A stretch of 64,000 nt of DNA from an uncultured Bacteroidales bacterium (GTDB taxonomy: Bacteria; Bacteroidota; Bacteroidia; Bacteroidales; F082), in the NCBI GenBank assembly GCA_905236635.1, contig CAJOCJ010000004.1, forward strand, positions 62,001 through 126,000, read 5' to 3'. The stretch's first letter is position 1; the number at the start of each line of letters is the position of its first letter. Of the stretch, positions 1 to 64,000 are shown in pieces. A program made the translations under genes and the position numbers. The notes below the pieces were generated by a model. It was not told where the DNA came from and did no database searches. It was given only the letters and a program-made list of their open reading frames with translations.

Positions 1-1261
1 CATAATAGGTTGATGTTCTTCTATATTCCAATACATAAAACTGATTGGGATCAGATGATGCTATTTTGTATGCAATATTGGTTGGTGTTGCTGAATTGAT
101 AGGATTCAGTGAATATATGCCAGGTGAGGTTATTTCAGGGATCTCGTCAAGCCAATGGCCGTATTTCATCTTCATATATGCACCGCAATGTTGTGGAGGC
201 GTTGATGTTGTTTCCATCAAATCCCAACATCCAACGGGCGAGGGGCCTGTGTAGGAATAATGGTAAAGGTCAGGTGCACTTAACGAATGGTTCATCTCGT
301 GGCACATAACCGAGGTGTTGAAATAATCAGTTGCGTCAGCTAATTGGAAATTGAATGTCCAGACACGTTTCCCGTTGATATAAACGGATCTGTCATAGAG
401 TGACCATTTGTGAGGCCACAGCAAATCATTCCAGTTGCCAACATTGCCTTTCACAATAAAACATACATTGTCAACATAACCATCGCTGTCATAGTCTATA
501 TCCAAACTCGTAGGGATAGGGTAGTTGGCATTGACATAATTAACTGCCCGCTGTAGGAGGGAGAATTCGCGATCTCTTCTCTGGCTGTCTCCACTATATC
601 CGTTAGGATTTGTACTTGCGTTATATGGTTCGAAGTAGTTCTTCGGATAGGTGTCTTGATATGATATGATAGTCTCACCATTGTGTCCTGGGTAGAAATA
701 AGTGGGGATTTCAATGTTGTTATATGATGCCTCTCTGAAATATGCTCTCAGTGAAGATGAATTTCCCGAAACATCATTGAACATATTGTCGATGGATGAA
801 TAGCTGTTGGTGAACTGTCCGTCGTCAGAAAAACGGATGAATATCGCAATGTTGTTTAGCGTGCCGTGGTTGGCGTCCTTGCCGGAACTCTTTGGACCAC
901 CAGCCTCAACAGGCACCTCCCAAGCTTTCCTTCTGGCCATCCATTCTTCCGGAGAAATCAGAGCATAAGGCTGTAATCCCTTGCTCGCCGGGTCTTGTCT
1001 GCCCGCTACTATCTCTGTAGCCACCAATTTGCCGTCGCGTTTCTCGGCATAAACATAATAACCCGTCTCAGGATGCTGAATTATTGTATATCCATTTGCA
1101 TCATGCAGGTAATTGAAAAACTCGTCACCTGATGCAAAACATTCCAAAACGGTGCCGTCTGGCTGAGTTACTTTCGTCGGAATGTCTTTTAAATATGCCG
1201 CTTGTGCACTCATCAGGCATATTGTTGTTATCAGAAGTATAAACAATCTTTTCAAAGTCAT
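1..1261 (-). CDS. M6-family (immune inhibitor A-like) secreted metalloprotease, C-terminal part truncated by window edge
   Basis: Reverse-strand translation from ATG at 1261: MTLKRLFILLITTICLMSAQAAYLKDIPTKVTQPDGT..., HExxH-like motif CHEMNHSLSAPDLYHY; signal peptide; open at position 1 (not in ORF track). Confidence 0.8.
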   Translation of the reverse strand, partial: MTLKRLFILLITTICLMSAQAAYLKDIPTKVTQPDGTVLECFASGDEFFNYLHDANGYTIIQHPETGYYVYAEKRDGKLVATEIVAGRQDPASKGLQPYALISPEEWMARRKAWEVPVEAGGPKSSGKDANHGTLNNIAIFIRFSDDGQFTNSYSSIDNMFNDVSGNSSSLRAYFREASYNNIEIPTYFYPGHNGETIISYQDTYPKNYFEPYNASTNPNGYSGDSQRRDREFSLLQRAVNYVNANYPIPTSLDIDYDSDGYVDNVCFIVKGNVGNWNDLLWPHKWSLYDRSVYINGKRVWTFNFQLADATDYFNTSVMCHEMNHSLSAPDLYHYSYTGPSPVGCWDLMETTSTPPQHCGAYMKMKYGHWLDEIPEITSPGIYSLNPINSATPTNIAYKIASSDPNQFYVLEYRRTSTYY

Positions 1262-1293
1262 TAAATTATATATTATATACTTATTTTCCTAAA

Positions 1294-1320
1294 AATCCCA
1301 TCAATCCTAATAATCCTACA
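1294..1320. repeat. Nonamer array 1: AATCCCATC AATCCTAAT AATCCTACA
   Basis: Exact 9-nt period, 3 units. Confidence 0.9.
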
Positions 1321-1357
1321 AAATTATAAAAAATAATTCATTCCTCCAACCAAATTA

Positions 1358-1405
1358 ATAAAAAATTGTTGATAACTCGCTAAAATCTCAAAGTTATCAA
1401 CAATT
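1358..1405 (-). terminator. Perfect 14-bp hairpin with U-tail on minus strand (terminator of the TIGR02757 gene)
   Basis: AATTGTTGATAACT (1364-1377) / AGTTATCAACAATT (1392-1405); minus transcript continues TTTTTTATT. Confidence 0.75.
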
Positions 1406-1418
1406 ATCACTTCCAACC

Positions 1419-1445
1419 AATCCTAAAAATCCTACTAATCCTATC
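1419..1445. repeat. Nonamer array 2: AATCCTAAA AATCCTACT AATCCTATC
   Basis: Exact 9-nt period; one nucleotide from the TIGR02757 stop codon. Confidence 0.9.
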
Positions 1446-1446
1446 T

Positions 1447-2229
1447 CTAGTCCATCACTTCAACTCCAAAAAGTGCAAAATCATATTTCACGGGGTCGTC
1501 TTCATCAAACTCTCGAAGCTTACTCGTCAGCAGTTCTACTGTATGCCTGTCGTTGCTCTTGCGTTCGATGAGTCCCAAATCTCTCGAAACTCTTGCTACG
1601 TGTACGTCTAAAGGTATCATCAAGTCCTTTGGTTTCAGGCGTTTCCATACGCCGAGGTCCACAATGCCGTCGTCTCTCACCAACCATCTCAGTGCCATGT
1701 GAAGTCTTTTGCACGCACTTCCTTTCATCGGTGCCTCACAGCTTGGATTGGAGATGTGTTTGCTTGTACATCCGTTCGCCTCTGCCATAATATCTCTAAA
1801 ATTCTGAATTCCCCTCCAAACATCATGGTTTCCGTCTTTTACAAAAATGTCTTCCAAACTATTGTTCCTACTAATCCCATCAATCCCACCAATCCTATAA
1901 ATCCTATTTAATCCTCTACAATAATACTTCAGATCCCTGCCGAAGAACGTTCTGTGCACACACTTTGTGTCGTCCAGTTTTTCGTATCCGCCCGACATGA
2001 CATAGTCGTATGGCGATTTCCCCATCATATCAAGCATTTTGTTTGCCGAATTCAATATCATTTTTCTATTGCCCCAGGCTATTGTGGCTACCAAAAACGA
2101 CACGATCTCGATATCTCTCAAATCGCAATATCTATGAGGAAACTGCACGGGGTCGTCCTTGATAAACGCCTCCGTGTTATTTTTTTCGACTAGCTCGTCC
2201 AAATATTGTTTTGTATTAATCCTACTCAT
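1447..2229 (-). CDS. TIGR02757 (DUF2400) family protein
   Basis: MSRINTKQYLDELVEKNN...DDPVQFPHRYCDLRDIEIVSFLVATIAWGNRKMI...PLDVHVARVSRDLGL; alternative upstream start at 2259. Confidence 0.8.
   Translation of the reverse strand: MSRINTKQYLDELVEKNNTEAFIKDDPVQFPHRYCDLRDIEIVSFLVATIAWGNRKMILNSANKMLDMMGKSPYDYVMSGGYEKLDDTKCVHRTFFGRDLKYYCRGLNRIYRIGGIDGISRNNSLEDIFVKDGNHDVWRGIQNFRDIMAEANGCTSKHISNPSCEAPMKGSACKRLHMALRWLVRDDGIVDLGVWKRLKPKDLMIPLDVHVARVSRDLGLIERKSNDRHTVELLTSKLREFDEDDPVKYDFALFGVEVMD
1873..1918. repeat. Nonamer array 3 (inside TIGR02757 CDS)
   Basis: AATCCCATC AATCCCACC AATCCTATA AATCCTATT T AATCCTCTA. Confidence 0.9.
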
Positions 2230-2253
2230 CTTAAAAATCCTACCAATCCTAAA
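2218..2253. repeat. Nonamer array 4 (overlaps TIGR02757 start codon)
   Basis: AATCCTACT CATCTTAAA AATCCTACC AATCCTAAA. Confidence 0.9.
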
Positions 2254-2258
2254 AAACA

Positions 2259-2285
2259 TAGAGACGCCATGTTATGACGTCTCTA
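2259..2285. repeat. REP-like palindrome TAGAGACG-CCATGTTATGA-CGTCTCTA
   Basis: 8-bp perfect inverted repeat. Confidence 0.75.
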
Positions 2286-2288
2286 CGT

Positions 2289-2316
2289 TCAATTGTCAAT
2301 TATCAATTGTCAATTA
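2289..2316. repeat. Heptamer array TCAATTG TCAATTA TCAATTG TCAATTA
   Basis: Exact 7-nt period; last TTA is the stop codon of the 2314-4251 CDS. Confidence 0.9.
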
Positions 2317-4251
2317 CTTAACAACAACCTTCTGTGTCTGGTTGCCAGCATTCACGAAGTAAACACCTGGCTCGAGGCTGACGTTGAGTTCGTTAACATT
2401 GTCGTAGGTCTTGACAACCTGACCAACTGTGTTGTAGATAACGACGTCGCTTGTGTTGGTGAGTCTTACGTTGAATGAACCCTGTGCTGGGTTAGGATAA
2501 ACGCTGATCATCTGAGCGATTGTTGCTGTGTGCTCTTCTTCACTATACAGGTCATCTAAGTAAACCTTAGCTGCATAGTAGAAGTTGTTGTCGCCAACAG
2601 CATCCTGGTTGTTGTCGCTTGACATCACGTATGCACCAGCTTCCAAGTCCATTTCGAATACGACCATGAAGTAGTCACCACCTGCATCGCTGTAGAGATA
2701 AGGAACAATGACAGGGTATGCCATCTCATCGTATGAATACTCGAAATCTGTGATGAGGGCTCTTGAGCCTTCCCATGTTGTACCGCCGTCGTATGAAACG
2801 TTAGCGAAGAGTCTCAGATAGTGCAATGCCTGGTCTGATGAATAACCAACGTTCTCTTCGTCACCGGCAATCATTGACCATGTTGCGCAGATTGTGTTAG
2901 ATGTCTGGTCGTATAACATTGATGCGAAAGCAGCAGGACCGCAGTTGTATGAACCGTGATCACCTCTTGTGCTTAAGTCAATCCAATAACCTTCCTGTGC
3001 ATCACGTGGAAGCACCTGGCCGTCTTCGTCAACGATTTCGAACTCGCCAATGTATTCCGGAAGTGGCTCATGTAATGCATCTGACCAGAACCATTCTGAA
3101 TAGTAAAGGTCTCTGAAGATGTAAGCTGAGTCCATGATGAATGGCTGACCGACTTCACCGATACCGCCGATACACAGTTCGTTCTTTGGAAGAACCTCGC
3201 TCCAGTAGCCGATGCCACCGTAAGCAGGATAGTATGAACCTGAACCTGGATCGCCAGTTGAACCATTCCATTCATATACCAAGTGGATGTTGCCATCGCC
3301 ATCATATTCGGCGCATGTCCAACGTGGATAGAGGAACACTGAGTCGCAACCATCGATGTTAGGATGCTGATAGTACACCTTTTCTGTCCAGTTCTGGCCA
3401 TTGTCTTCTGAAATGACGACTTTACCATCTGACCATGCTGTATTCACCACGAAAGCTACAGTATTAGGTGTTTCTGGATTGTAACGCATGAAATAGATTG
3501 AGTTTGAACCCAAATCATGTGTGTGGTTTGTGTCGAGAGGCTCGAGAACAACGTTTGAAGCTGTCCATTCGCCACCTTCATAACGGAAGTAGAGCTGTGG
3601 CTCGTTGCAGTAATCTGGCTGGCCTTCTGTGCCGAATGAACCACCAAAATAGCAAGCAATGACATGGATGATGTCGAGGTTCTCGCCTGAACACTGTACT
3701 GCAGGGTGTGTTGGCTCGTATGTGTTGTCAACATAACCGAGTTTAACCCATTCACCACCGTTACGGAAGTCTTCATTTACCCAAATACCTAATTTGTTTG
3801 CTGTGTGGGCTGCGATGACAAGACCGTTTTCTTTGTAACGGGCGATTGAACCGAAACCTGTTTTCTCATCTTCAATACGGGCTTCTGTGAACTGCCATTC
3901 ACCAACTGCTGGATCATAAACTGCGAGACCAGTACCACGATCTGAGAAAGATTGGTTTGTTGCCTGTGTGAATGCCACTACTGCATAACCGTCAGGCCAT
4001 ACTGCTGTGAAGTTTCTTGGACCTGAGTTTGACTGCCAGTCATAGAATGTCTGGCTTCCTTCGGTGATGTCAGGAGTCACCATAATGCTTCTTGTTGAAG
4101 GAGCATAATTCTCATTAAAGCGTTCAAAACCTTTGAAGCTCATTGTCTGAGCAGGTTCTGCTTTCACTGATTTGCGTGAAAGACCCTTTACCTGAGCGAA
4201 ACTTGTAATAGCCACTGCCATTACGAGAACTAAAGTAAATACTTTTTTCAT
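2314..4251 (-). CDS. Secreted T9SS-cargo protein (C-terminal Por secretion tail), sialidase/BNR-like body
   Basis: Signal peptide MKKVFTLVLVMAVAITSFAQ; C-term ISVYPNPAQGSFNVRL...YNTVGQVVKTYDN...GVYFVNAGNQTQKVVVK. Confidence 0.8.
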   Translation of the reverse strand: MKKVFTLVLVMAVAITSFAQVKGLSRKSVKAEPAQTMSFKGFERFNENYAPSTRSIMVTPDITEGSQTFYDWQSNSGPRNFTAVWPDGYAVVAFTQATNQSFSDRGTGLAVYDPAVGEWQFTEARIEDEKTGFGSIARYKENGLVIAAHTANKLGIWVNEDFRNGGEWVKLGYVDNTYEPTHPAVQCSGENLDIIHVIACYFGGSFGTEGQPDYCNEPQLYFRYEGGEWTASNVVLEPLDTNHTHDLGSNSIYFMRYNPETPNTVAFVVNTAWSDGKVVISEDNGQNWTEKVYYQHPNIDGCDSVFLYPRWTCAEYDGDGNIHLVYEWNGSTGDPGSGSYYPAYGGIGYWSEVLPKNELCIGGIGEVGQPFIMDSAYIFRDLYYSEWFWSDALHEPLPEYIGEFEIVDEDGQVLPRDAQEGYWIDLSTRGDHGSYNCGPAAFASMLYDQTSNTICATWSMIAGDEENVGYSSDQALHYLRLFANVSYDGGTTWEGSRALITDFEYSYDEMAYPVIVPYLYSDAGGDYFMVVFEMDLEAGAYVMSSDNNQDAVGDNNFYYAAKVYLDDLYSEEEHTATIAQMISVYPNPAQGSFNVRLTNTSDVVIYNTVGQVVKTYDNVNELNVSLEPGVYFVNAGNQTQKVVVK

Positions 4252-4398
4252 ACGTTTAAATTTAGTTATTAAAATAATTAAGTTGTATTCTACATATAAT
4301 ACGTGACAAAATTACACATTTTTTTTAAACGAAGAGCAAAAAAAATCAAAAATCGAAAAATATTTTTAAAAAATTTCCCAACACCTATTATTAATATT

Positions 4399-4434
4399 AA
4401 TCCTAAAAATCCCACTAATCCTATAAATCCTAAA
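4399..4434. repeat. Nonamer array 5: AATCCTAAA AATCCCACT AATCCTATA AATCCTAAA
   Basis: Exact 9-nt period. Confidence 0.9.
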
Positions 4435-4440
4435 ATTCTT

Positions 4441-4468
4441 TAACCAATAAACAATAACCAATAAACTT
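4441..4468. repeat. Heptamer array TAACCAA TAAACAA TAACCAA TAAACTT
   Basis: Exact 7-nt period. Confidence 0.85.
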
Positions 4469-4475
4469 TTTTTTT

Positions 4476-4484
4476 TATCTTTGC
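4476..4484 (+). promoter_or_regulatory. Bacteroidetes -7 element TATCTTTGC upstream of kdsA
   Basis: Matches TAnnTTTG. Confidence 0.6.
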
Positions 4485-4499
4485 AAAAAAATTACATCA

Positions 4500-5315
4500 A
4501 TGATAACTCTTAGCAACTATCCGTTCATGAAAGATCTGAAGAAAAACCGTTTTTTCCTCCTTGCCGGCCCATGTGTCATAGAGGATGAGGAATCGCCGTT
4601 TCAGATAGCCGAGCATCTTGTCAAAATCACGAAAAGCCTGGATATTCCTTTTGTTTTCAAGGGCTCATACCGTAAGGCTAACCGCTCGCGTCTCGATTCA
4701 TTTCAAGGGATAGGCGATGAGAAGGCACTTAATGTGCTGAAAAATATTGCCAAGCAGTTCAACGTTCCTGTCGTTACCGATATCCACTCCTGTGAAGAGG
4801 CGGCGATGGCAGCCGAATACGTTGACATACTTCAGATTCCGGCATTTCTGTGCCGCCAGACTGATTTATTGGTAGCTGCTGCAAAAACGGGCAAGATTGT
4901 TAATATAAAGAAGGGACAGTTCCTCTCTGGCGAATCGATGCGCTTTGCTGTTGAGAAGGTGCAACAGTCTGGCAATCAGCGTGTTATGCTGACGGATAGA
5001 GGCAACTTCTTCGGCTATCAAGACCTCGTTGTCGATTATCGTAATATCTACGATATGCAGAAAAACAACGTACCTGTCATCATGGATGTAACTCATTCGC
5101 TGCAGCAGCCTAATCAGACTGCCGGTGTCACTGGTGGCAAGCCCGAACTGATAGAGCTTATCGCCAAGGCTGCCATCGCCGTGGGCGCCGACGGTCTCTT
5201 CATGGAGACGCATCCCAATCCGGCAAAGGCCAAATCCGACGGCGCCAACATGCTCCGTCTTGACTTGATGCAAGATCTTCTTGAAAAACTCGTAAGAATT
5301 AAGGAAGCCCTATAA
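4500..5315 (+). CDS. kdsA: 3-deoxy-8-phosphooctulonate synthase
   Basis: FLLAGPCVIEDEESPFQIAEHL, FKGSYRKANRSRLDSFQGIGDEKAL, DVTHSLQQPN. Confidence 0.95.
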   Translation: MITLSNYPFMKDLKKNRFFLLAGPCVIEDEESPFQIAEHLVKITKSLDIPFVFKGSYRKANRSRLDSFQGIGDEKALNVLKNIAKQFNVPVVTDIHSCEEAAMAAEYVDILQIPAFLCRQTDLLVAAAKTGKIVNIKKGQFLSGESMRFAVEKVQQSGNQRVMLTDRGNFFGYQDLVVDYRNIYDMQKNNVPVIMDVTHSLQQPNQTAGVTGGKPELIELIAKAAIAVGADGLFMETHPNPAKAKSDGANMLRLDLMQDLLEKLVRIKEAL

Positions 5316-5321
5316 AAATTC

Positions 5322-5349
5322 TCAATTGTCAATTCTCAATTGTCAATTT
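5322..5349. repeat. Heptamer array TCAATTG/TCAATTC
   Basis: Between kdsA and aat stops; encodes the aat C-terminus KLTIEN-stop. Confidence 0.85.
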
Positions 5350-6078
5350 CCTAAGCTCCGCTGAACCGTCACCCCAGTTGCCGACGAGGCTCTCTTCGTT
5401 GACTAATGGTTTTAACAGTTTCAAGAACTCTTTCCTTGGGATCGGAGCGGCTCCCATACGTCTCATATGTGCCGTTTCCTGCTGAGCGTCAATGAGTTCA
5501 AACCCGTTTCTTGTTAAGAATTGGCACAGATTATACAACGCCACCTTCGAGGCGTCGGTCTTGGTGTGGAACATAGACTCGGCGCAAAACACCTTGCCGA
5601 TGGCGACGCCGTAGAGTCCTCCCACCAGTTCGTTGTCCTGATAGACCTCCACTGAATGCGCAAAACCAAGGTCATGCAACTCGCAATATGCCGCTATCAT
5701 GTCTTCGCTGATCCATGGGCTGGGCTCGTCGGTGTCGTCTTCCTCTTCGGCCTGGTCATCGGTGCGCGGCACAGTGGCACAAGCACGGATGACACCTTCG
5801 AAATCGGCATCAAATGAACAGGAATATCTATTCGACTCAATGGTCTTCCACAACGATTTGGTGACTTTCAAATCTGCCGGCTTCAGAACCATGCGTGGGT
5901 CGAGCGCCCACCATAATATCGGCTCACCTTCTTGATACCATGGGAAAATGCCTGACGAATAGGCGACGAGCAACCTCTCTGGCGACAAATCACCGCCAAT
6001 TGCAAGTAAGCCGTCTTTTGTCGACTGGCCCACTGGCGGGAAATCCAATACCTCGTCCTTTAACATGTATATCGGCAT
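5329..6078 (-). CDS. aat: Leucyl/phenylalanyl-tRNA--protein transferase
   Basis: DFPPVGQSTKDGLLAIGGDLSPERLLVAYSSGIFPWYQEGEPILWWALDPRMVL. Confidence 0.95.
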   Translation of the reverse strand: MPIYMLKDEVLDFPPVGQSTKDGLLAIGGDLSPERLLVAYSSGIFPWYQEGEPILWWALDPRMVLKPADLKVTKSLWKTIESNRYSCSFDADFEGVIRACATVPRTDDQAEEEDDTDEPSPWISEDMIAAYCELHDLGFAHSVEVYQDNELVGGLYGVAIGKVFCAESMFHTKTDASKVALYNLCQFLTRNGFELIDAQQETAHMRRMGAAPIPRKEFLKLLKPLVNEESLVGNWGDGSAELRKLTIEN

Positions 6079-6185
6079 AGTTTTACGATTTTTGAGGTTA
6101 AATTTCACCACAAAGGTAAAAATTATTTTTCAAATATGCAAGTTTTTTGTGCAATTTTTTTAATTTTGCAGTGCGAATTTTCGAA

Positions 6186-6914
6186 ATGATTAGGTATTTC
6201 TTACATCTGGCGTACAACGGAAAAGCTTATCACGGTTGGCAAATCCAACCGGGCGATATCACCGTGCAGGAGACCCTCGAGAAATGTATCAGTCTGAAGC
6301 TGAAGCAGCAGGTCTCCGTCACTGGATGCGGCCGCACGGACACTGGTGTCAACGCTCGTAACTTCTATGCTCATTTCGAGTCGGAGCCTATCGAAGACTT
6401 GCAACAGTTTGTGTATCAATTGAATATCTTTCTGCCGGATGATATCGTAGTCTATCGCTGCTGGCAAGTCGACCCATACCTGCACGCACGTTTCGATGCC
6501 AAGTCGCGTACCTATCATTACTACATTACGCGCACCAAGAACCCATTCCACACCGACGACACCTTATATATATATGGTCCGCTCGATGTTGATAAGATGA
6601 ATGAGGCAGCAAAGCTTCTTTTTGAATATCAAGACTTTACAAGCTTCTCAAAGCTTCATACCCAAGTCAAGACAAACAACTGCAAAATAATGGAGGCATA
6701 TTGGTTCGAACAAAATGATTTGCTCGTTTTCCATATCAAAGCCGACAGATTCTTGAGAAATATGGTACGAGCCCTCGTTGGGACGCTGTTAGAAGTGGGG
6801 AAGGGGAAGATGACTCTCGAAGGGTTCCGTGCCGTCATCGAACAGAAAGACCGTTGCTCGGCAGGCACCTCCATGCCCGCCCATGCCTTGTTTCTGGAGG
6901 ATGTAACGTATTAA
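6186..6914 (+). CDS. truA: tRNA pseudouridine(38-40) synthase TruA
   Basis: MIRYFLHLAYNGKAYHGWQIQPGDITVQETLE, GCGRTDTGVNARNFYAHF, RFLRNMVRALVGTLLEVGKG. Confidence 0.95.
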   Translation: MIRYFLHLAYNGKAYHGWQIQPGDITVQETLEKCISLKLKQQVSVTGCGRTDTGVNARNFYAHFESEPIEDLQQFVYQLNIFLPDDIVVYRCWQVDPYLHARFDAKSRTYHYYITRTKNPFHTDDTLYIYGPLDVDKMNEAAKLLFEYQDFTSFSKLHTQVKTNNCKIMEAYWFEQNDLLVFHIKADRFLRNMVRALVGTLLEVGKGKMTLEGFRAVIEQKDRCSAGTSMPAHALFLEDVTY

Positions 6915-6920
6915 TTATCA

Positions 6921-6985
6921 AGACCATACGGAAAATCAGCTATGTAAGCGCTTGCGCTTGCCAGGAGTTGATTATTGTATGGTCT
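6921..6985. other. Long imperfect hairpin between convergent truA and GH97 genes
   Basis: AGACCATAC/GTATGGTCT outer stem, AATCAGCT/AGTTGATT middle stem, AAGCG-CTTG-CGCTT apex. Confidence 0.75.
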
Positions 6986-7004
6986 GGAATATCATCTCAA
7001 ATAA

Positions 7005-9002
7005 TTATTTCAATATGATTACTGCACCGCCGCCACTGGCAAGCTCTATCTTTAATCTATTATCTTTTATCTCTTTATCTATTATCTGATAATCCTCAGC
7101 ATTTCTATTGGCATTCACCCCATCTTGATAAATCCTACTCATCCCATTAATCCTACCAATCATATTCAAATCAATCTCTATCGAACGTGCCTTCCAATTC
7201 GTTATCGCCCCAATATACCATGTGTCTCCTTTTCTCCTAGCAATCACTGCATATTCGCCAAGTTTTCCATCCAATGCCACCGTCTCATCCCATACCGTCG
7301 GTACGCTGGCGATGAAATCGACGCATTCCTGGTTCTGAATGTACTTCGTCGGACTGTCGCACATCATGTTGAATGGCGACTCAAATATTACATACTCAGC
7401 GAGTTGTCTGCATCTGGTACCTTGACTCATTGGGTTGGTGTAGATGGCTTTGAAGTGGTACTTCGTGGCGTTGTCCATGGCGCCCTGAGTGTAATCCAAG
7501 TTGCCCGCCACCATCCTGATATAAGGTATCATGCATTCGTAATCCACCTGATGAAGGTTGTCATCCCATTTCGACTGTTCCAAACCATAGACACCCTCGA
7601 AATTAAGCACGTTAGGGTAGGTGCGGCTCAGTCCCGTGGGCTTGTAAGCCCCATGAAAATCAACGAATAAATGGTATTTTGCCGCCATCGCCGCCATCCT
7701 GTAATAGAAGTCCACCACTTTCTGGTCGTCGCGGTCCATGAAATCCACCTTAAAGCCTTTGATTCCCATCTCGCTGTAGTGCTTGCACACATGCTCCATG
7801 TCTCTGTCGATGGCATAATAACCTGCCCAAAGCACCAATCCGACATTGCGTTCTTTGCCGTAAGCGACAAGTTCCTCCAAATCGATTTCGGGTACAATTT
7901 GGAACAAGTCTGCCTGTTTGTTGACAGCCCAGCCTTCGTCCAAAATCACATATTCTATGCCGTTTTTCGAAGCGAAATCAATGTAATACTTATAGGTGTC
8001 GTTATTGATGCCTGCCTTGAAATCGACCCCCCAGATGTTCCAGTTGTTCCACCAGTCCCAAGCCACCTTACCCGGCTTGATCCAACTTACATCCTTCACT
8101 CTCGACGGCGATGCCAGTTTATAAACCATGTCGCTGTTCATCAGCTCGGCGTCGTTCTCCGAAATCACTATCGCTCTCCACGGGAAATCCCTTGTGCCAT
8201 TGGTCTTTGCGACGAAATCCTCTCTTTCTTTCACCACCATCTGCAGCATGTTGTGCCCGCCTTGTTCCTCCACCTTCGGATATGTCGACTGCACCGAAAC
8301 GAGGCTGTTGCCTTCGCCTTTTCTAAAGAAAGTGCCAGGAAAATCTTCAAGATCCGACTCCACGATGACCGCTTTTTTGCCGTCTTTCAAACAGATTAAT
8401 AAAGGTGTGAAAGCGATGCGCTCAACATCCATTTTTGAAATAGAATCGATTGTGTATTGACTCTCAAATGACGTAAAAAACTGCTGTGTCAGGAAGTCGC
8501 CGTCGCCTTTGCGTGCGTTAACGTAAGGTATATATGCCACATAATCATCATCAAAACAATAATTGACATTCTCCTTTTTGACAATAATAGGTTTTTTAAA
8601 ACTCGTCGAAAATCTATAAGCCACCCCGTCGTCAAAAACTCTGAAAGTCAGTTTGTAATTACCTTTGAAATTGATAATCAACTCGTTATAATTATTTCTA
8701 ACTTCATTTTTCTTATAAAAATCAGCGTGTATAGTCTCGTTCACCGTATTTCTTCCTACTTTCCCTACCACTCCTCCTAATCCTAATGTCTTATCCCCAT
8801 TCAGTTCCATTGAAATCTCTGACTCATTGATAATCACTGTGTTATCATGCTTTACACTATACTTTACCTCATTACCGACATTTACCGTCACGCAAATCTT
8901 ACCATCCGGCGACTTTACCTCATAATTATTCCCATAAATCCTACCAATCCCACCAATCTTAATAAATCCTAAAATGAATAATAGAGTCAATAATCTTTTC
9001 AT
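7005..9002 (-). CDS. Glycoside hydrolase family 97 (SusB-like alpha-glucosidase/alpha-galactosidase)
   Basis: VAWDWWNNWNIWGVDFKAGINNDTYKYYIDFASKNGIEYVILDEGW; GIKGFKVDFMDRDDQ; signal peptide. Confidence 0.9.
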   Translation of the reverse strand: MKRLLTLLFILGFIKIGGIGRIYGNNYEVKSPDGKICVTVNVGNEVKYSVKHDNTVIINESEISMELNGDKTLGLGGVVGKVGRNTVNETIHADFYKKNEVRNNYNELIINFKGNYKLTFRVFDDGVAYRFSTSFKKPIIVKKENVNYCFDDDYVAYIPYVNARKGDGDFLTQQFFTSFESQYTIDSISKMDVERIAFTPLLICLKDGKKAVIVESDLEDFPGTFFRKGEGNSLVSVQSTYPKVEEQGGHNMLQMVVKEREDFVAKTNGTRDFPWRAIVISENDAELMNSDMVYKLASPSRVKDVSWIKPGKVAWDWWNNWNIWGVDFKAGINNDTYKYYIDFASKNGIEYVILDEGWAVNKQADLFQIVPEIDLEELVAYGKERNVGLVLWAGYYAIDRDMEHVCKHYSEMGIKGFKVDFMDRDDQKVVDFYYRMAAMAAKYHLFVDFHGAYKPTGLSRTYPNVLNFEGVYGLEQSKWDDNLHQVDYECMIPYIRMVAGNLDYTQGAMDNATKYHFKAIYTNPMSQGTRCRQLAEYVIFESPFNMMCDSPTKYIQNQECVDFIASVPTVWDETVALDGKLGEYAVIARRKGDTWYIGAITNWKARSIEIDLNMIGRINGMSRIYQDGVNANRNAEDYQIIDKEIKDNRLKIELASGGGAVIILK
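7046..7090. repeat. Heptamer-like array (CTATTAT/CTTTTAT) inside GH97 C-terminus
   Basis: CTATCTTTAATCTATTATCTTTTATCTCTTTATCTATTATCTGAT. Confidence 0.65.
7121..7166. repeat. Nonamer array 6 (inside GH97 C-terminus)
   Basis: CATCTTGAT A AATCCTACT CATCCCATT AATCCTACC AATCATATT. Confidence 0.8.
8752..8787. repeat. Nonamer array 7, degenerate (inside GH97)
   Basis: CTTCCTACT TTCCCTACC ACTCCTCCT AATCCTAAT. Confidence 0.6.
8937..8973. repeat. Nonamer array 8 (GH97 signal peptide region)
   Basis: AATCCTACC AATCCCACC AATCTTAAT A AATCCTAAA. Confidence 0.85.
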
Positions 9003-9093
9003 AGTTCTAAATTTTAATCATACAAAATTAAGACAAATTATCATTCATATCAAAAAATTCCCTATTTTTGTACAAAATTTAAAAAATATCGAC

Positions 9094-9858
9094 ATGAGAA
9101 ACTTACTTTTAATCAGCAATTCAACGAATTTTGGTGAGACATATCTGGCTTGGGCGATGACCCAGCTTGAACAGTTTTTTGACAAGAACAAACTTGGTGC
9201 CAAAAGCAAGGTGGCTTTCGTTCCTTTCGCGGGAGTCTTTATCGGCGGTAACCCATATCCGAAGAGCTATGACGCTTATACTGAGAAGGTTAGAAAAGTT
9301 TTTAACGAGAAACTTGGCGTGAAGAAATTCCTCTCGGTGCACGAAGTAGAGGATAAGGTAGGTCTTGTGAAGACTGCTGACTGTATCGTGGTAGGTGGCG
9401 GCAACACATTCCACCTCGTTGCCGAGCTTCATAAATTCGGTTTGATGCAGGCTATCGCCGAATGCGCTAACAACGGAACTCCTTATATTGGCTGGAGTGC
9501 TGGATCGAACATCGCATGTCCGACACTCTGTACCACTAACGACATGCCGATAGTGCAGCCAGCAAGCTTTAACACACTGAATCTCATACCGTTCCAAATC
9601 AATCCTCATTATCTCGACCCACATCCGGAGATTGACAAGATGATAAAACATGGCGGAGAGACACGTCAGGACCGTATCAACGAATACCTCGCGGTACGTC
9701 AGGAGATGAAGGTAGTCGGACTGCGTGAGGCGACGGCAATCTGGGTAGTTGGTGACAAATATTACCTCAAAGGCGGCAAGAAAATGATGATCTTCCAATA
9801 CGGAAAAGAGCCTGTAGAACTTGAGCCGAACCAGGAAATCACCAAGTATGTGCTGTAG
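9094..9858 (+). CDS. pepE: Dipeptidase E (peptidase family S51)
   Basis: MRNLLLISNSTNFGETYL...VGGGNTFHLVAELHKFGL...PYIGWSAGSNIACPTLCTTNDMPIV. Confidence 0.92.
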   Translation: MRNLLLISNSTNFGETYLAWAMTQLEQFFDKNKLGAKSKVAFVPFAGVFIGGNPYPKSYDAYTEKVRKVFNEKLGVKKFLSVHEVEDKVGLVKTADCIVVGGGNTFHLVAELHKFGLMQAIAECANNGTPYIGWSAGSNIACPTLCTTNDMPIVQPASFNTLNLIPFQINPHYLDPHPEIDKMIKHGGETRQDRINEYLAVRQEMKVVGLREATAIWVVGDKYYLKGGKKMMIFQYGKEPVELEPNQEITKYVL

Positions 9859-9895
9859 AAATGCGTTTTTTCTTGCATTGTATTGAAATAATATT

Positions 9896-9904
9896 TATAT
9901 TTGC
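9896..9904 (+). promoter_or_regulatory. Bacteroidetes -7 element TATATTTGC upstream of the exported-protein operon
   Basis: Matches TAnnTTTG. Confidence 0.6.
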
Positions 9905-9955
9905 AAGTTTAAAATTGATTTAAAATTTGGTAAAAATCATTTAAAAGTATTGAAT

Positions 9956-10543
9956 ATGAAGAAGTTACTCTATTTTTTAATTGCTTTAATGTTCATTTCG
10001 GTTATACCGGAAATATCTTATGCTCAGTCGAACGACCCATTTGAGCAGCAGACACTCAAAGCTACCAACAGGTCTGGCAGAAGAGAGAAAAAGGTGAACC
10101 GCAGAAAAGTTGAGGAACAGCCAGTGCAACAAGTAGCTCCGGCACCTAAGCCAGAGCCAAAGCCGGAACCAAAACCGGTTGTCAAACCTTCGACAGTTAA
10201 AATCTCCAATCCTTGCGAAGAATGGCTCGACGTTGAGTTCGTTTCGTTGATCGGAAGCAGAGCATCACAGACGATATCGCTTACCCTCAAAGTCAACAAC
10301 CACGGACTGAATAAAGAGATGAACATCGGTGGCGCTTTTGTCGGATATGACAGCGAAGGCGAGGAGCATACCAGAGGCTGGGCACCTGAGCATTATAAGA
10401 CTTTGACCGACATCCCGTTCAAGACCTCATTCGAGATCCCCGGCAAAATCAACCCGTCGAAGACAACGGTAATGCCTATCATGAAATTCAACATCGGCGA
10501 TTGCAGCGTCGAGATGAGAGATGTCCCGATTGACTGGAAATAA
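9956..10543 (+). CDS. Exported protein with Pro/Lys/Glu-rich linker (PKPEPKPEPKP), hypothetical
   Basis: Signal peptide ...ISYAQS; proline-rich spacer; C-terminal beta-rich domain. Confidence 0.7.
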   Translation: MKKLLYFLIALMFISVIPEISYAQSNDPFEQQTLKATNRSGRREKKVNRRKVEEQPVQQVAPAPKPEPKPEPKPVVKPSTVKISNPCEEWLDVEFVSLIGSRASQTISLTLKVNNHGLNKEMNIGGAFVGYDSEGEEHTRGWAPEHYKTLTDIPFKTSFEIPGKINPSKTTVMPIMKFNIGDCSVEMRDVPIDWK

Positions 10544-10575
10544 TAGAATTCTAACAGAAAATAAATAGAAAGTAT

Positions 10576-12009
10576 ATGAAAGTTTTTATTAAAAGCTTAA
10601 CTCAGATTCTCGTGCTGTTGCTTCTGACAAACACTGCGTTTGCCCAGAAAAACAACGAGAAACGCTCGGTCCTCGACCAACAGTATGAGGTTCAGTACAT
10701 AGGCGTAGGCCAGGATGGAACCAAGGTGTTTACGGTGACCACAACAGTTAAAGACGCTAAAGAAGGCGTTGAGATGGCAAAACGTGACGCGGTGGCGGCA
10801 TGCCTCTTCCGCGGAATCACAGCATCGGAGCAGACAGTGGCAACTCCTGCTATCGTGTCATACGCAGTGGCAGAGGAAAATATCAATTTCTTCGAGGGTT
10901 TCCTCGCATTGCCGACAAAGAAAACCCCTGGCGGAGCATATCACCGTTTCATCAATAAGACCGGACAACCCAGGTCGGTGAAAGAAGGCAGATCCTACAA
11001 CGTATCCGTTGATGTCCAGGTGCTTTACGACGATCTTCTGAAGTATATGCAGGACAAAGGCTATGCCCAGGATGTGAAGAACACTGGCGCCGGAAAATAT
11101 GCTAAACCAATCCTTATGGTGGTGCCTTCCGACGTGTATTGCAACGAGATGGGCTACGTACAGAAATGGACCGACGAAAACGGAATTCAGCGCTCGGTGT
11201 CGGACTACGACGTGTTTGACCGTGAAGACAGCCGTGACCTCCGCCTCGTCATATCTTCGCTCAACGAGATCTTCAACAAGAAGGGTTTTGAGGTGCAGAG
11301 CCTTGAGTTCCTTATGAGAAGCCTCAAACAGGAAGAGCAGGAGAACCAGTTCATCGGCAACGACTACGGCCTCGACGGCGACATCGTAGAATCACCAATC
11401 GACCGCATCAAACGTACAGCAAACGTTGACTTTATCGTTGACCTCGACTTCGAAATCTATGAGGTCGGAACACAACGTTATGTGTCGTTCAACATGAAAG
11501 CTGTCGACGTCAGCTCCAACGCAAGAGAGATAGCCCACGCCCATGGCGACGGTAAACCTTCTAACTCAGCATCAATCAACACGTTGCTGGAGGAGGCGGT
11601 GCTTAACCACATGGACTCATTCTGCAAGAAACTGCAAAATGAATATGACCGTATGTCGAAGAACGGCCGTCAGATCACCGTCAAGGTCAAGAGAACCGAC
11701 AACTCCGACTACGACCTGCTTCGCACCACATTCGTATTCGAAGGCAAGCAGACTCCACTGGGCGACATCATCTATTATTGGCTGCAGGACAACACTGTCG
11801 ACAACAACCCGACCAGATCTATCACACCTAACGTCATCACATTCAACCAGGTGATGATCCCGATTACAAAGGTCGGTCGCCGCGGTCAGATGCAACGCGT
11901 TGACACTCAGGAATATTTAATGGATTTACAAGCATATCTCAGAGACACCTATAACGTGGATGGCACCATCTACATGCGTGGTCCGAGCGAGGTATGGATA
12001 GTTTTATAA
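10576..12009 (+). CDS. Exported hypothetical protein, possibly a Bacteroidetes DUF6175-like family
   Basis: Signal peptide MKVFIKSLTQILVLLLLTNTAFAQ; 477 aa; family recalled, not verified. Confidence 0.6.
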   Translation: MKVFIKSLTQILVLLLLTNTAFAQKNNEKRSVLDQQYEVQYIGVGQDGTKVFTVTTTVKDAKEGVEMAKRDAVAACLFRGITASEQTVATPAIVSYAVAEENINFFEGFLALPTKKTPGGAYHRFINKTGQPRSVKEGRSYNVSVDVQVLYDDLLKYMQDKGYAQDVKNTGAGKYAKPILMVVPSDVYCNEMGYVQKWTDENGIQRSVSDYDVFDREDSRDLRLVISSLNEIFNKKGFEVQSLEFLMRSLKQEEQENQFIGNDYGLDGDIVESPIDRIKRTANVDFIVDLDFEIYEVGTQRYVSFNMKAVDVSSNAREIAHAHGDGKPSNSASINTLLEEAVLNHMDSFCKKLQNEYDRMSKNGRQITVKVKRTDNSDYDLLRTTFVFEGKQTPLGDIIYYWLQDNTVDNNPTRSITPNVITFNQVMIPITKVGRRGQMQRVDTQEYLMDLQAYLRDTYNVDGTIYMRGPSEVWIVL

Positions 12010-61708: not shown

Positions 61709-64000
61709 ATGAAGAAAATTGTTATGATTCTAGGATTTGCAGGGCTTTTAACTGCTTGTGTATCATGCGAAAAGAAAGCTCAAAATGGAGAATTCAAGTA
61801 TCTCGTCGACGAGTTTGCCGACCTTAAGGTTATGCGTTATCAGATCCCTAATTGGGACGAGCTGACGCTGCAACAGAAAGAATATGTGTATTACCTCGGA
61901 GAGGCTGCAAAATGCGGTCGCGACATCCTTGCCGACCAGAATTTCAAGTATAACCTGACGGTTCGTAAGACCCTTGAGGCTATCCTTAACTCTTACAAAG
62001 GCGATACGAAATGCGCTGACTATCAGAACTTTGTGGTCTACGCAAAACGCGTGTTCTTCAGTAACGGCATCCATCACCACTATGCCGAAGATAAGATGTT
62101 CCCGGAGATTTCTCAGGAATATTTCGCACAATTGGTGAAAAACTCGGATAAGAATCTCCTTCCATTGGCTGAAGGCGAGACTGTCGATGCGTTTTTGGAT
62201 TTCATCACTCCGGTCATCTTTGACAAAGACCTGTATAAGATGCGCCGCAGTGGGGAAGAGGACATCATCCAAAACTCATGTGTCAATTTCTATGAAGGCA
62301 CAATAAACAAAGGCGAAGTCGAGGCATTTTACGATGCACAGCGCGTCCCGAACGACCCTACACCGATTTCATACGGTCTGAATTCAAAACTTGTCAAGGA
62401 AAACGGCAAGCTTCGTGAAGAGGTCTATAAGGTTGACGGCCTTTACGGAAAAGCCATTGAGCAGATTATCTATTGGCTCAAGAAGGCTAACGAGGTGGCA
62501 GAAAACGACAGCCAACGTAACTACACCAATTTGCTAATCGATTATTACACAACGGGTGACCTCAAGACTTGGGACGAATACAACATCGCCTGGGTTGAGG
62601 ATTCAATCTCGAATATCGACTTTGTGAACGGCTTCATAGAGGACTACAACGACCCGATGGGCATGAAAGCCACCTGGGAGGCCATTGTCGACTATAAAGA
62701 CATGGAAGCCACAAAACGCTCTGAGATCATCAGCGCCAACGCACAGTGGTTCGAGGACAACTCACCTGTTGATGAGCGTTTCAAGAAGAAAGAATGCAAG
62801 GGCGTGAGCGCAAAGGGCATCATCGTAACCACCTTGGCTGGCGACTGCTTCCCGGCACCTCCGATTGGCATCAACCTGCCGAACGCCGACTGGATTCGCA
62901 AGGAACACGGCTCTAAGTCAGTGACTATCACCAACTTGATGGATGCTTACGACAAAGCCGCCAACGAGTCACCAAAGAGTGTCTTGGCTGAGTTTGCTTA
63001 CTCACAGGAAGAGATTGACCTCTGCAAGCAGTGGAGCAGTCTCGCCGATGTTCTTCACACCGACTTACACGAATGCCTCGGCCACGGCTCGGGACAGCTG
63101 CTTCCGACGACACCTCAGAATGCTCTGAAAGAATACAGCTCAGCGCTCGAAGAGGCACGTGCCGACCTGTTTGGCCTGTACTACTGCGCCGATCCTAAGA
63201 TGGTGGAACTCGGCATCCTTCCAAATATGGAATGCTACAAGGCACAATATGCCGACTTCATCCGCAACGGCCTTATGAGCCAGCTCGCAAGAATAGAGTT
63301 GGGCAAGGACATCACCGAGGCTCACATGCAGGACCGCGCCCTCATCAGCTGGTGGTGCTATGAGAAAGGCTTGAACGACAACGTGATTGAAAAGGTCGTC
63401 CGCGACGGCAAGACATACTTCGTCATCAACGACTACGAGAAACTCCGTGGCCTGTTTGGTGAGCTCCTCGCTGAGATACAGCGTGTCAAGTCGGAAGGCG
63501 ACTACGAGGAAGGCAAGCGTCTCATCGAGACCTACGCTGTGAAGATCGACCCAGAGCTTCATAAAGAGGTCAAGGCTCGTTACGAAGCCCTCGGACTGAA
63601 GCCTTACGGCGGATTCATCAACCCCGACATCGTTCCTGTCGTTAAGAACGGCGAAGTCGTTGACTATCAAGTCAATTACCCAACCGACTTCCTGCAGCAG
63701 CACCTCGATTATGGCAAGAACTACAGCTTCGTAGAGGAGAATCACGAGGCCCCGACACATCTCGTTGTTGATATGCTTTATGACTTCATTGATGGCACAC
63801 TGGCTTGCGGCAATGCTGAAAACGCTGTGCATGAGGTCGTGAAATACATCAACGCTCACCCTGAGCAGCGTGTCATCTACATCACCGATTATCATCCGGC
63901 AAACCACAGCTCATTCGCCGATTACGGTGGCATCTGGCCTGTTCACTGCGTGCAGGGTACACGCGGCGGCGCTATCCATGAGGCGTTCTACAACGACGTC
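61709..64000 (+). CDS. Dipeptidyl-peptidase III-like (M49) lipoprotein, truncated by window end
   Basis: ATG at 61709, lipobox-like ACVSCEKK; HEXXGH motif LHTDLHECLGHGSGQLL and EEARADLFGLYY; open to 64000 (not in ORF track). Confidence 0.9.
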   Translation, partial: MKKIVMILGFAGLLTACVSCEKKAQNGEFKYLVDEFADLKVMRYQIPNWDELTLQQKEYVYYLGEAAKCGRDILADQNFKYNLTVRKTLEAILNSYKGDTKCADYQNFVVYAKRVFFSNGIHHHYAEDKMFPEISQEYFAQLVKNSDKNLLPLAEGETVDAFLDFITPVIFDKDLYKMRRSGEEDIIQNSCVNFYEGTINKGEVEAFYDAQRVPNDPTPISYGLNSKLVKENGKLREEVYKVDGLYGKAIEQIIYWLKKANEVAENDSQRNYTNLLIDYYTTGDLKTWDEYNIAWVEDSISNIDFVNGFIEDYNDPMGMKATWEAIVDYKDMEATKRSEIISANAQWFEDNSPVDERFKKKECKGVSAKGIIVTTLAGDCFPAPPIGINLPNADWIRKEHGSKSVTITNLMDAYDKAANESPKSVLAEFAYSQEEIDLCKQWSSLADVLHTDLHECLGHGSGQLLPTTPQNALKEYSSALEEARADLFGLYYCADPKMVELGILPNMECYKAQYADFIRNGLMSQLARIELGKDITEAHMQDRALISWWCYEKGLNDNVIEKVVRDGKTYFVINDYEKLRGLFGELLAEIQRVKSEGDYEEGKRLIETYAVKIDPELHKEVKARYEALGLKPYGGFINPDIVPVVKNGEVVDYQVNYPTDFLQQHLDYGKNYSFVEENHEAPTHLVVDMLYDFIDGTLACGNAENAVHEVVKYINAHPEQRVIYITDYHPANHSSFADYGGIWPVHCVQGTRGGAIHEAFYNDV

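Follow-up and report, generated by a model that had tools for sequence, protein, structure and literature searches.

A clustered family of nine-nucleotide tandem arrays in an uncultured Bacteroidales bacterium, and repeat turnover in the same enzyme loops of its relatives

The short tandemly repeated repetitive sequences (STRR) and long simple sequence repeats (LSSR) of bacteria include the TAACTGA heptamers of Beggiatoaceae, Cyanobacteria and some Bacteroidetes (PMC4679880, reviewing Mrazek et al. 2007), and units whose length is divisible by three are the likeliest to be found in coding regions (PMC4679880). Repetitive extragenic palindromic (REP)/GTAG-tagged palindromes and the Rickettsia palindromic elements have been described as insertions within reading frames (PMC3733652). 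Here we analyze a 64-kb window (the whole stretch examined, positions 62,001 to 126,000 of contig CAJOCJ010000004.1, here C4) of an uncultured Bacteroidales bacterium (GCA_905236635.1, here G000), which harbors eight tandem arrays of a degenerate nonamer, AATCCYANN, each of 3–5 units and all on the + strand (Table 1). The literature searched yielded no paper that describes 9-nt arrays from Bacteroidales.

The eight arrays named in a preliminary description of this DNA (at 1294, 1419, 1873, 2218, 4399, 7121, 8752 and 8937) are all present at slightly shifted coordinates, and its claims of a single orientation and of no similar array elsewhere in the window hold as well: the − strand carries none at comparable stringency, and nothing of similar strength turns up in the remainder of the window. 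The comparison with shuffled sequence, on which that description had staked clustering and strand bias, came out in its favor. Three-unit stretches that match the core at 18 or more of 21 positions occur along C4 at nine places on the + strand and none on the −. Summed over both strands, codon shuffling leads one to expect 0.017 and synonymous-codon shuffling 0.8, the latter being a conservative control because it retains the repeat peptides; a reversed-pattern control of CCT searches is invalid, because TCC too recurs with period 9. The 2.05-Mb genome, scanned de novo in sampled stretches and by pattern in the remainder, contains two further arrays 34 kb before the window, in aroB (C4:27775-27819) and aroA (C4:28442-28495), one on the − strand of contig C26 (12216-12260), and one additional weak match on contig C17 (3 mismatches allowed). 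Ten of the 11 arrays fall inside 43 kb, where random placement put at most five in a stretch that long; a 400-kb sample of other contigs held no nonamer array of the AATCCYANN family, and heptamer arrays were present there. We regard the family as confirmed to be real, clustered, and same-stranded within this block, at sites as varied as a probable 5′ untranslated region (UTR), a stop codon, a start codon, a divergent spacer, a signal peptide and protein loops.

What is most telling about the unit is that a conserved AATCCTA core precedes two positions that vary almost freely. Across 83 units from 19 arrays in three species, entropy is 0.32–0.81 bit at positions 1–5 and 7, position 6 is mostly a pyrimidine, and positions 8–9 reach 1.7 bit and are almost devoid of G; the core of the originally proposed consensus thus stands, while its unrestricted last two positions are better written as AATCCYAHH. 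The same anatomy recurs in the Bacteroidota bacterium USDE_metabat.41, where the loci read include 27 intergenic AATCCTANN arrays (197 units, 3–23 per array), with entropies of 0.05–0.52 in the nearly invariant core and 1.6 at positions 8–9; the search pattern behind these loci required the core in three units, and many arrays extend far past that length. All of these sampled arrays are intergenic and spread over many contigs, and their spacer variants are duplicated block-wise (for example CC TT CC TT). The long intergenic arrays of this genome occur in both orientations (L025, L063, L086, L087, L097). Many Bacteroidota are also among the matches listed in an exact three-unit search of named genomes. 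Uniform mutation of an array should not preserve seven positions while freeing two, which leaves selection on the core or a need for it in copying.

STRR/LSSR is the class closest to these arrays, and the likeness to cyanobacterial heptanucleotide repeats drawn in the preliminary description was well judged. In both, short units that differ by lineage are directly repeated in tandem at numerous loci, and head-to-tail units in the 5–11-nt range recur here beyond chance at several loci. Unlike classic STRR, however, the period is nine rather than seven (true heptamers coexist in the genome), with a core of about 7 nt plus two free bases; the arrays are confined to one block and one other contig rather than being genome-wide and mainly intergenic; over half of them (6/11) lie inside open reading frames (ORFs); and the unit changes between species at the same loci. 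The closest precedent for in-frame repeats is provided by the REP and Rickettsia palindromic elements, likewise small interspersed repeats that lie in frame in housekeeping genes, a similarity that does not amount to membership: the nonamers are direct tandem repeats, nearly G-free on the + strand, and form no stem-loop palindrome. To our knowledge, no mobilizing enzyme is associated with them. REP-type palindromes nevertheless fill, in related species, the very loops that hold nonamers in G000. Iterons and DnaA-box clusters are also directly repeated short sites with conserved cores; in contrast to these, the nonamers lie in unrelated genes, show no association with a replication gene in the block, and do not match the DnaA box. 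Because the arrays have neither a heptanucleotide unit nor palindromic structure, we class them as a variant among the short tandem repeats.

Tandem arrays with 7- or 9-nt units are numerous in species of this Bacteroidales genus, the 7-mers lying mainly between genes and the 9-mers also within reading frames. In 560 kb comprising C4 and its counterparts in relatives, there are 52 matches of period 7 and 28 of period 9 (part of which are low-complexity or ordinary coding sequence), against none in a Markov control. Within G000, four of 46 heptamer arrays lie in ORFs versus the six of 11 nonamer arrays (P=0.002), a contrast that fits a reading-frame filter; in-frame nonamers in aroB, aroA, DUF2400 and GH97 bear out the earlier statement that the arrays are tolerated in coding sequence. 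Heptamer contexts roughly track the available intergenic length, with no clear preference for promoters or terminators. Many-unit heptamer arrays occur throughout the genome (e.g. C4:85255-85301 and C4:130817-130886), and some in relatives form facing inverted pairs (G046:C6, G041:C32).

Genus members (designated by G numbers) were searched with AroB, DUF2400, GH97 and AroA. Scanning relatives, as the preliminary description had proposed, showed that AATCCYANN is not unique to G000 and that other nonamer families occupy its sites elsewhere. In G127, about five sites that correspond to those of the G000 block bear AATCCYANN arrays, uniformly oriented and differing in unit content from their G000 counterparts; the unit is also found in MurD, an endonuclease-like gene and the end of an RNA-methyltransferase-like gene of G106, and in MurD of G017. 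A tree of trimmed AroA and AroB gives (G017,(G000,(G127,(G005,G046)))), with support of at least 95/88 for the last three forks and 81/95 for the G017 fork. Despite this branching order, the AroA and AroB genes of G005 and G046 carry CCCTANNGC-like arrays and AroA of G127 carries AATGGCATT-like units; G114 has TATCCATCT units in AroA and AroB alike. Depending on the species, the AroA loop contains AATCCYANN, CCCTANNGC, TATCCTTCT or AATGGCATT units, an in-frame REP-type palindrome, or nothing; the C-terminal loop of GH97 holds nonamers in G000, G127, G046 and G026, a palindrome (CCTCGC...GGAATGACA) in G005, G011, G015, G032 and G017, and no recognizable repeat in G039, G035, G051, G041 and G053. 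Such turnover is shared by loops of AroA, AroB, MurD, DUF2400 and GH97, so that one set of hypervariable loops in housekeeping enzymes hosts several kinds of small repeat over about 20 related species, and much of the loop sequence therefore seems to stem from repeat turnover rather than point mutation. Simple insertion is rejected for DUF2400 and the GH97 C-terminus, where the array replaces a loop of about equal length. In the AlphaFold model of AroA, the sole segments with a predicted local distance difference test (pLDDT) score below 50 are residues 62-70 (the nonamer array) and 148-152 and 363-373 (palindrome peptides); these repeat-derived residues are probably flexible.

Several further repeats were seen in these proteins. 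Other AroA loops of G000 (L297, residues ∼145-153 and 360-375) resemble in-frame translations of REP-type palindromes (VETCHGASM, THGRASQSSVQTCHGASL), as do loops of relatives (VETRHGTSL, VGTDRVCPP, VKTRFIASH). A second palindromic repeat, CCTCxCxxCGxTCGGAATGACA, reads EVPRSARND in frame and lies in loops that hold nonamers in other species (DUF2400 L165, L166, L169, L171 and L173; GH97 L182, L186, L189, L191 and L193). In G011, G035 and G051 (L248-L270), TATCCTTCT arrays encode lysine/aspartate linkers (KDKKDKEDK) inside many proteins, with the C-rich strand mostly antisense to the host gene.

The arrays had also been called orientation-locked, which is true of the chromosome strand in this block but not of transcription, nor as a rule for the genus. 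In the + strand genes aroB and aroA the arrays read NPTNPINPT and SPTNPTNPTNPI, and in the − strand genes DUF2400 and GH97 they read RIYRIGGIDGIS and GRINGMSRIY, along with a RIGGIDGIS-type reading. Arrays are thus sense in + genes and antisense in − genes, so orientation is tied to the chromosome strand within the block, and transcription locking is rejected. On contig G025:C56, a nonamer family of that genome's own occurs in both orientations although GC skew keeps one sign, so fixed orientation is not general, and locking to the replication strand is likewise rejected. Intergenic nonamers of relatives have their C-rich strand on the locally C-rich strand in 18 cases versus 7 (P=0.04), which may reflect composition alone. 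The RNA-level element raised in the preliminary description finds no support: arrays show no consistent RNA-level placement or sense strand, positions 1-12000 of the window have no Rfam match at E up to 0.1, and a structured RNA is rejected.

Our favored explanation, to which we give about an even chance, is that the arrays are a local family of dispersed STRR/LSSR-type minisatellite with a 9-nt unit, spread by slippage and core-dependent template switching and filtered by frame and protein tolerance. New arrays would begin where native sequence already resembles the core, as at the kdsA-like stop (CCTATAA), in MurD (AATCCYAAR) and in AroB (AATCCTGAT), with an existing array serving as template for replication slippage and microhomology-driven template switching. 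If re-annealing and copying are restricted to units whose core is intact, the core would be kept while the two spacer bases drift; we accordingly favor a core retained because copying itself needs it, rather than by selection. Arrays could persist within genes at non-critical loops, termini and signal peptides because their unit length is a multiple of three, where 7-mers mostly would not, and no host function would be required; a conserved one is disfavored by the inconsistent position of arrays relative to genes and by their replacement between close relatives. Whole-array duplication is rejected, as G000 arrays have no ordered unit pairs in common (0.8 expected by permutation). That same absence weighs against our explanation as well. 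Nor would short-range template switching alone bridge the 35 kb that separate the two sub-clusters or account for the array on another contig; the uniform orientation owes something to shared ancestry; and the three sites behind the seed argument were picked out post hoc. A bolder and rather doubtful extension makes the roughly 7 conserved bases a selfish replicator, whose intact-core units are copied by template switching and move between noncoding DNA and enzyme loops, with species evolving their own cores and overwriting the same loops. If true, it would be a bacterial counterpart of satellite-DNA molecular drive, writing protein sequence.

The main competing explanation, which we consider unlikely, is that each unit is one site for a sequence-specific DNA- or RNA-binding protein, in an iteron-like array whose core is kept by selection. 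A conserved core beside a free spacer, a pattern that extends to noncoding arrays and to a second Bacteroidota genome, is as much expected from such selection as from copying, and this too counts against the explanation we favor; the recurrence of the pattern makes the old problem of STRR spread testable, with the core as either a copying requirement or a binding site. However, the arrays have no consistent position, being located within genes, at 3′ ends, in 5′ UTRs and in a divergent spacer, close relatives have a different unit or no array at the same site, and a 9-bp spacing is not one whole helical turn. Quite unlikely, in our view, is purely local slippage, in which arrays expanded independently from native quasi-repeats with no copying between loci. 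Such quasi-repeats do exist at several sites (GISGIY in the GH97 signal peptide, LNPD in AroB, CCTATAA in the kdsA-like gene), and independent expansion would agree with the lack of common unit pairs, but it leaves unexplained both the position-specific wobble and one common core at about 10 loci in 43 kb with none in the 400-kb sample elsewhere. It is improbable that the arrays are copy-number-variable contingency loci tuning gene expression or protein loops: tandem units do lie in 5′ UTRs, a signal peptide and protein loops, with contents that differ between G000 and G127, but arrays this short (3–5 units) and imperfect should slip slowly, most of the host proteins are housekeeping enzymes, not surface antigens, and gain or loss of a 9-nt unit causes no frameshift that could turn a gene off. 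Chance, codon-usage artefact or assembly error is refuted almost entirely by the shuffle controls, the clustering and the arrays at corresponding places in independently assembled genomes, even though a signal-peptide match in G017 (NHLPILKILIIPLIL, L001), itself likely chance, shows that single matches can arise in hydrophobic coding sequence. Spread by phage is rejected, as matches fell on 30 scattered viral contigs among 2.9 million, nearly all of them single.

Table 1. Arrays, host genes and neighboring repeats in the window, with the contents of the same sites in related genomes.
Feature	Position	Strand	Context	Same site in relatives
Nonamer array, 4 units	1285..1320	+	Intergenic, just 3′ of a TAnnTTTG-type promoter-like element of a − strand gene; probable 5′ UTR	G127: array in corresponding spacer (L327:3885-3946)
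Nonamer array, 3 units	1419..1445	+	Overlaps DUF2400 gene stop codon	Heptamers in G017 and G051; other nonamers in G011
DUF2400 (PF09674) gene	1447..2259	−	Host of two arrays	
Nonamer array, 5 units	1864..1908	+	Within DUF2400; antisense reading RIYRIGGIDGIS	Nonamers in G127 and G032; REP-type palindrome in most others
Nonamer array, 4-5 units	2218..2262	+	Across likely DUF2400 start codon (MSRIN)	TATCCTCTT units in G026; CCTATTNGT-like units in G032
REP-type palindrome (GTAGAGACG...CGTCTCTAC-like)	2256..2288	not assigned	Adjoins array	Similar palindrome in most relatives read
TCAATTG/A heptamer array	2289..2316	not assigned		
Nonamer array, 4 units	4399..4434	+	Divergent spacer between type IX secretion system (T9SS)-tail protein gene and DAHP-synthetase-family (kdsA-like) gene	G127: array likewise upstream of kdsA-like gene
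TCAATTN heptamer array	5317..5348	not assigned	3′ end of kdsA-like gene	Nonamer array in G127
GH97 glycosidase gene	7005..9002	−	Host of three in-frame arrays	
Nonamer array, 4 units	7131..7166	+	GH97 C-terminal domain (IGRINGMSRIYQDG)	
Degenerate array, 4 CCT-core units	8752..8787	+	GH97 N-terminal domain (GLGGVVGKVGRN); weak, 16/21 core matches	Similar array in G127 (L327:9239)
Nonamer array, 4 units	8928..8963	+	GH97 signal peptide (FIKIGGIGRIYG)	

Downstream of DUF2400, a hairpin (TTGATAACT...AGTTATCAA, window positions 1364-1405) is retained in the relatives read, whereas the repeats on either side of it change.

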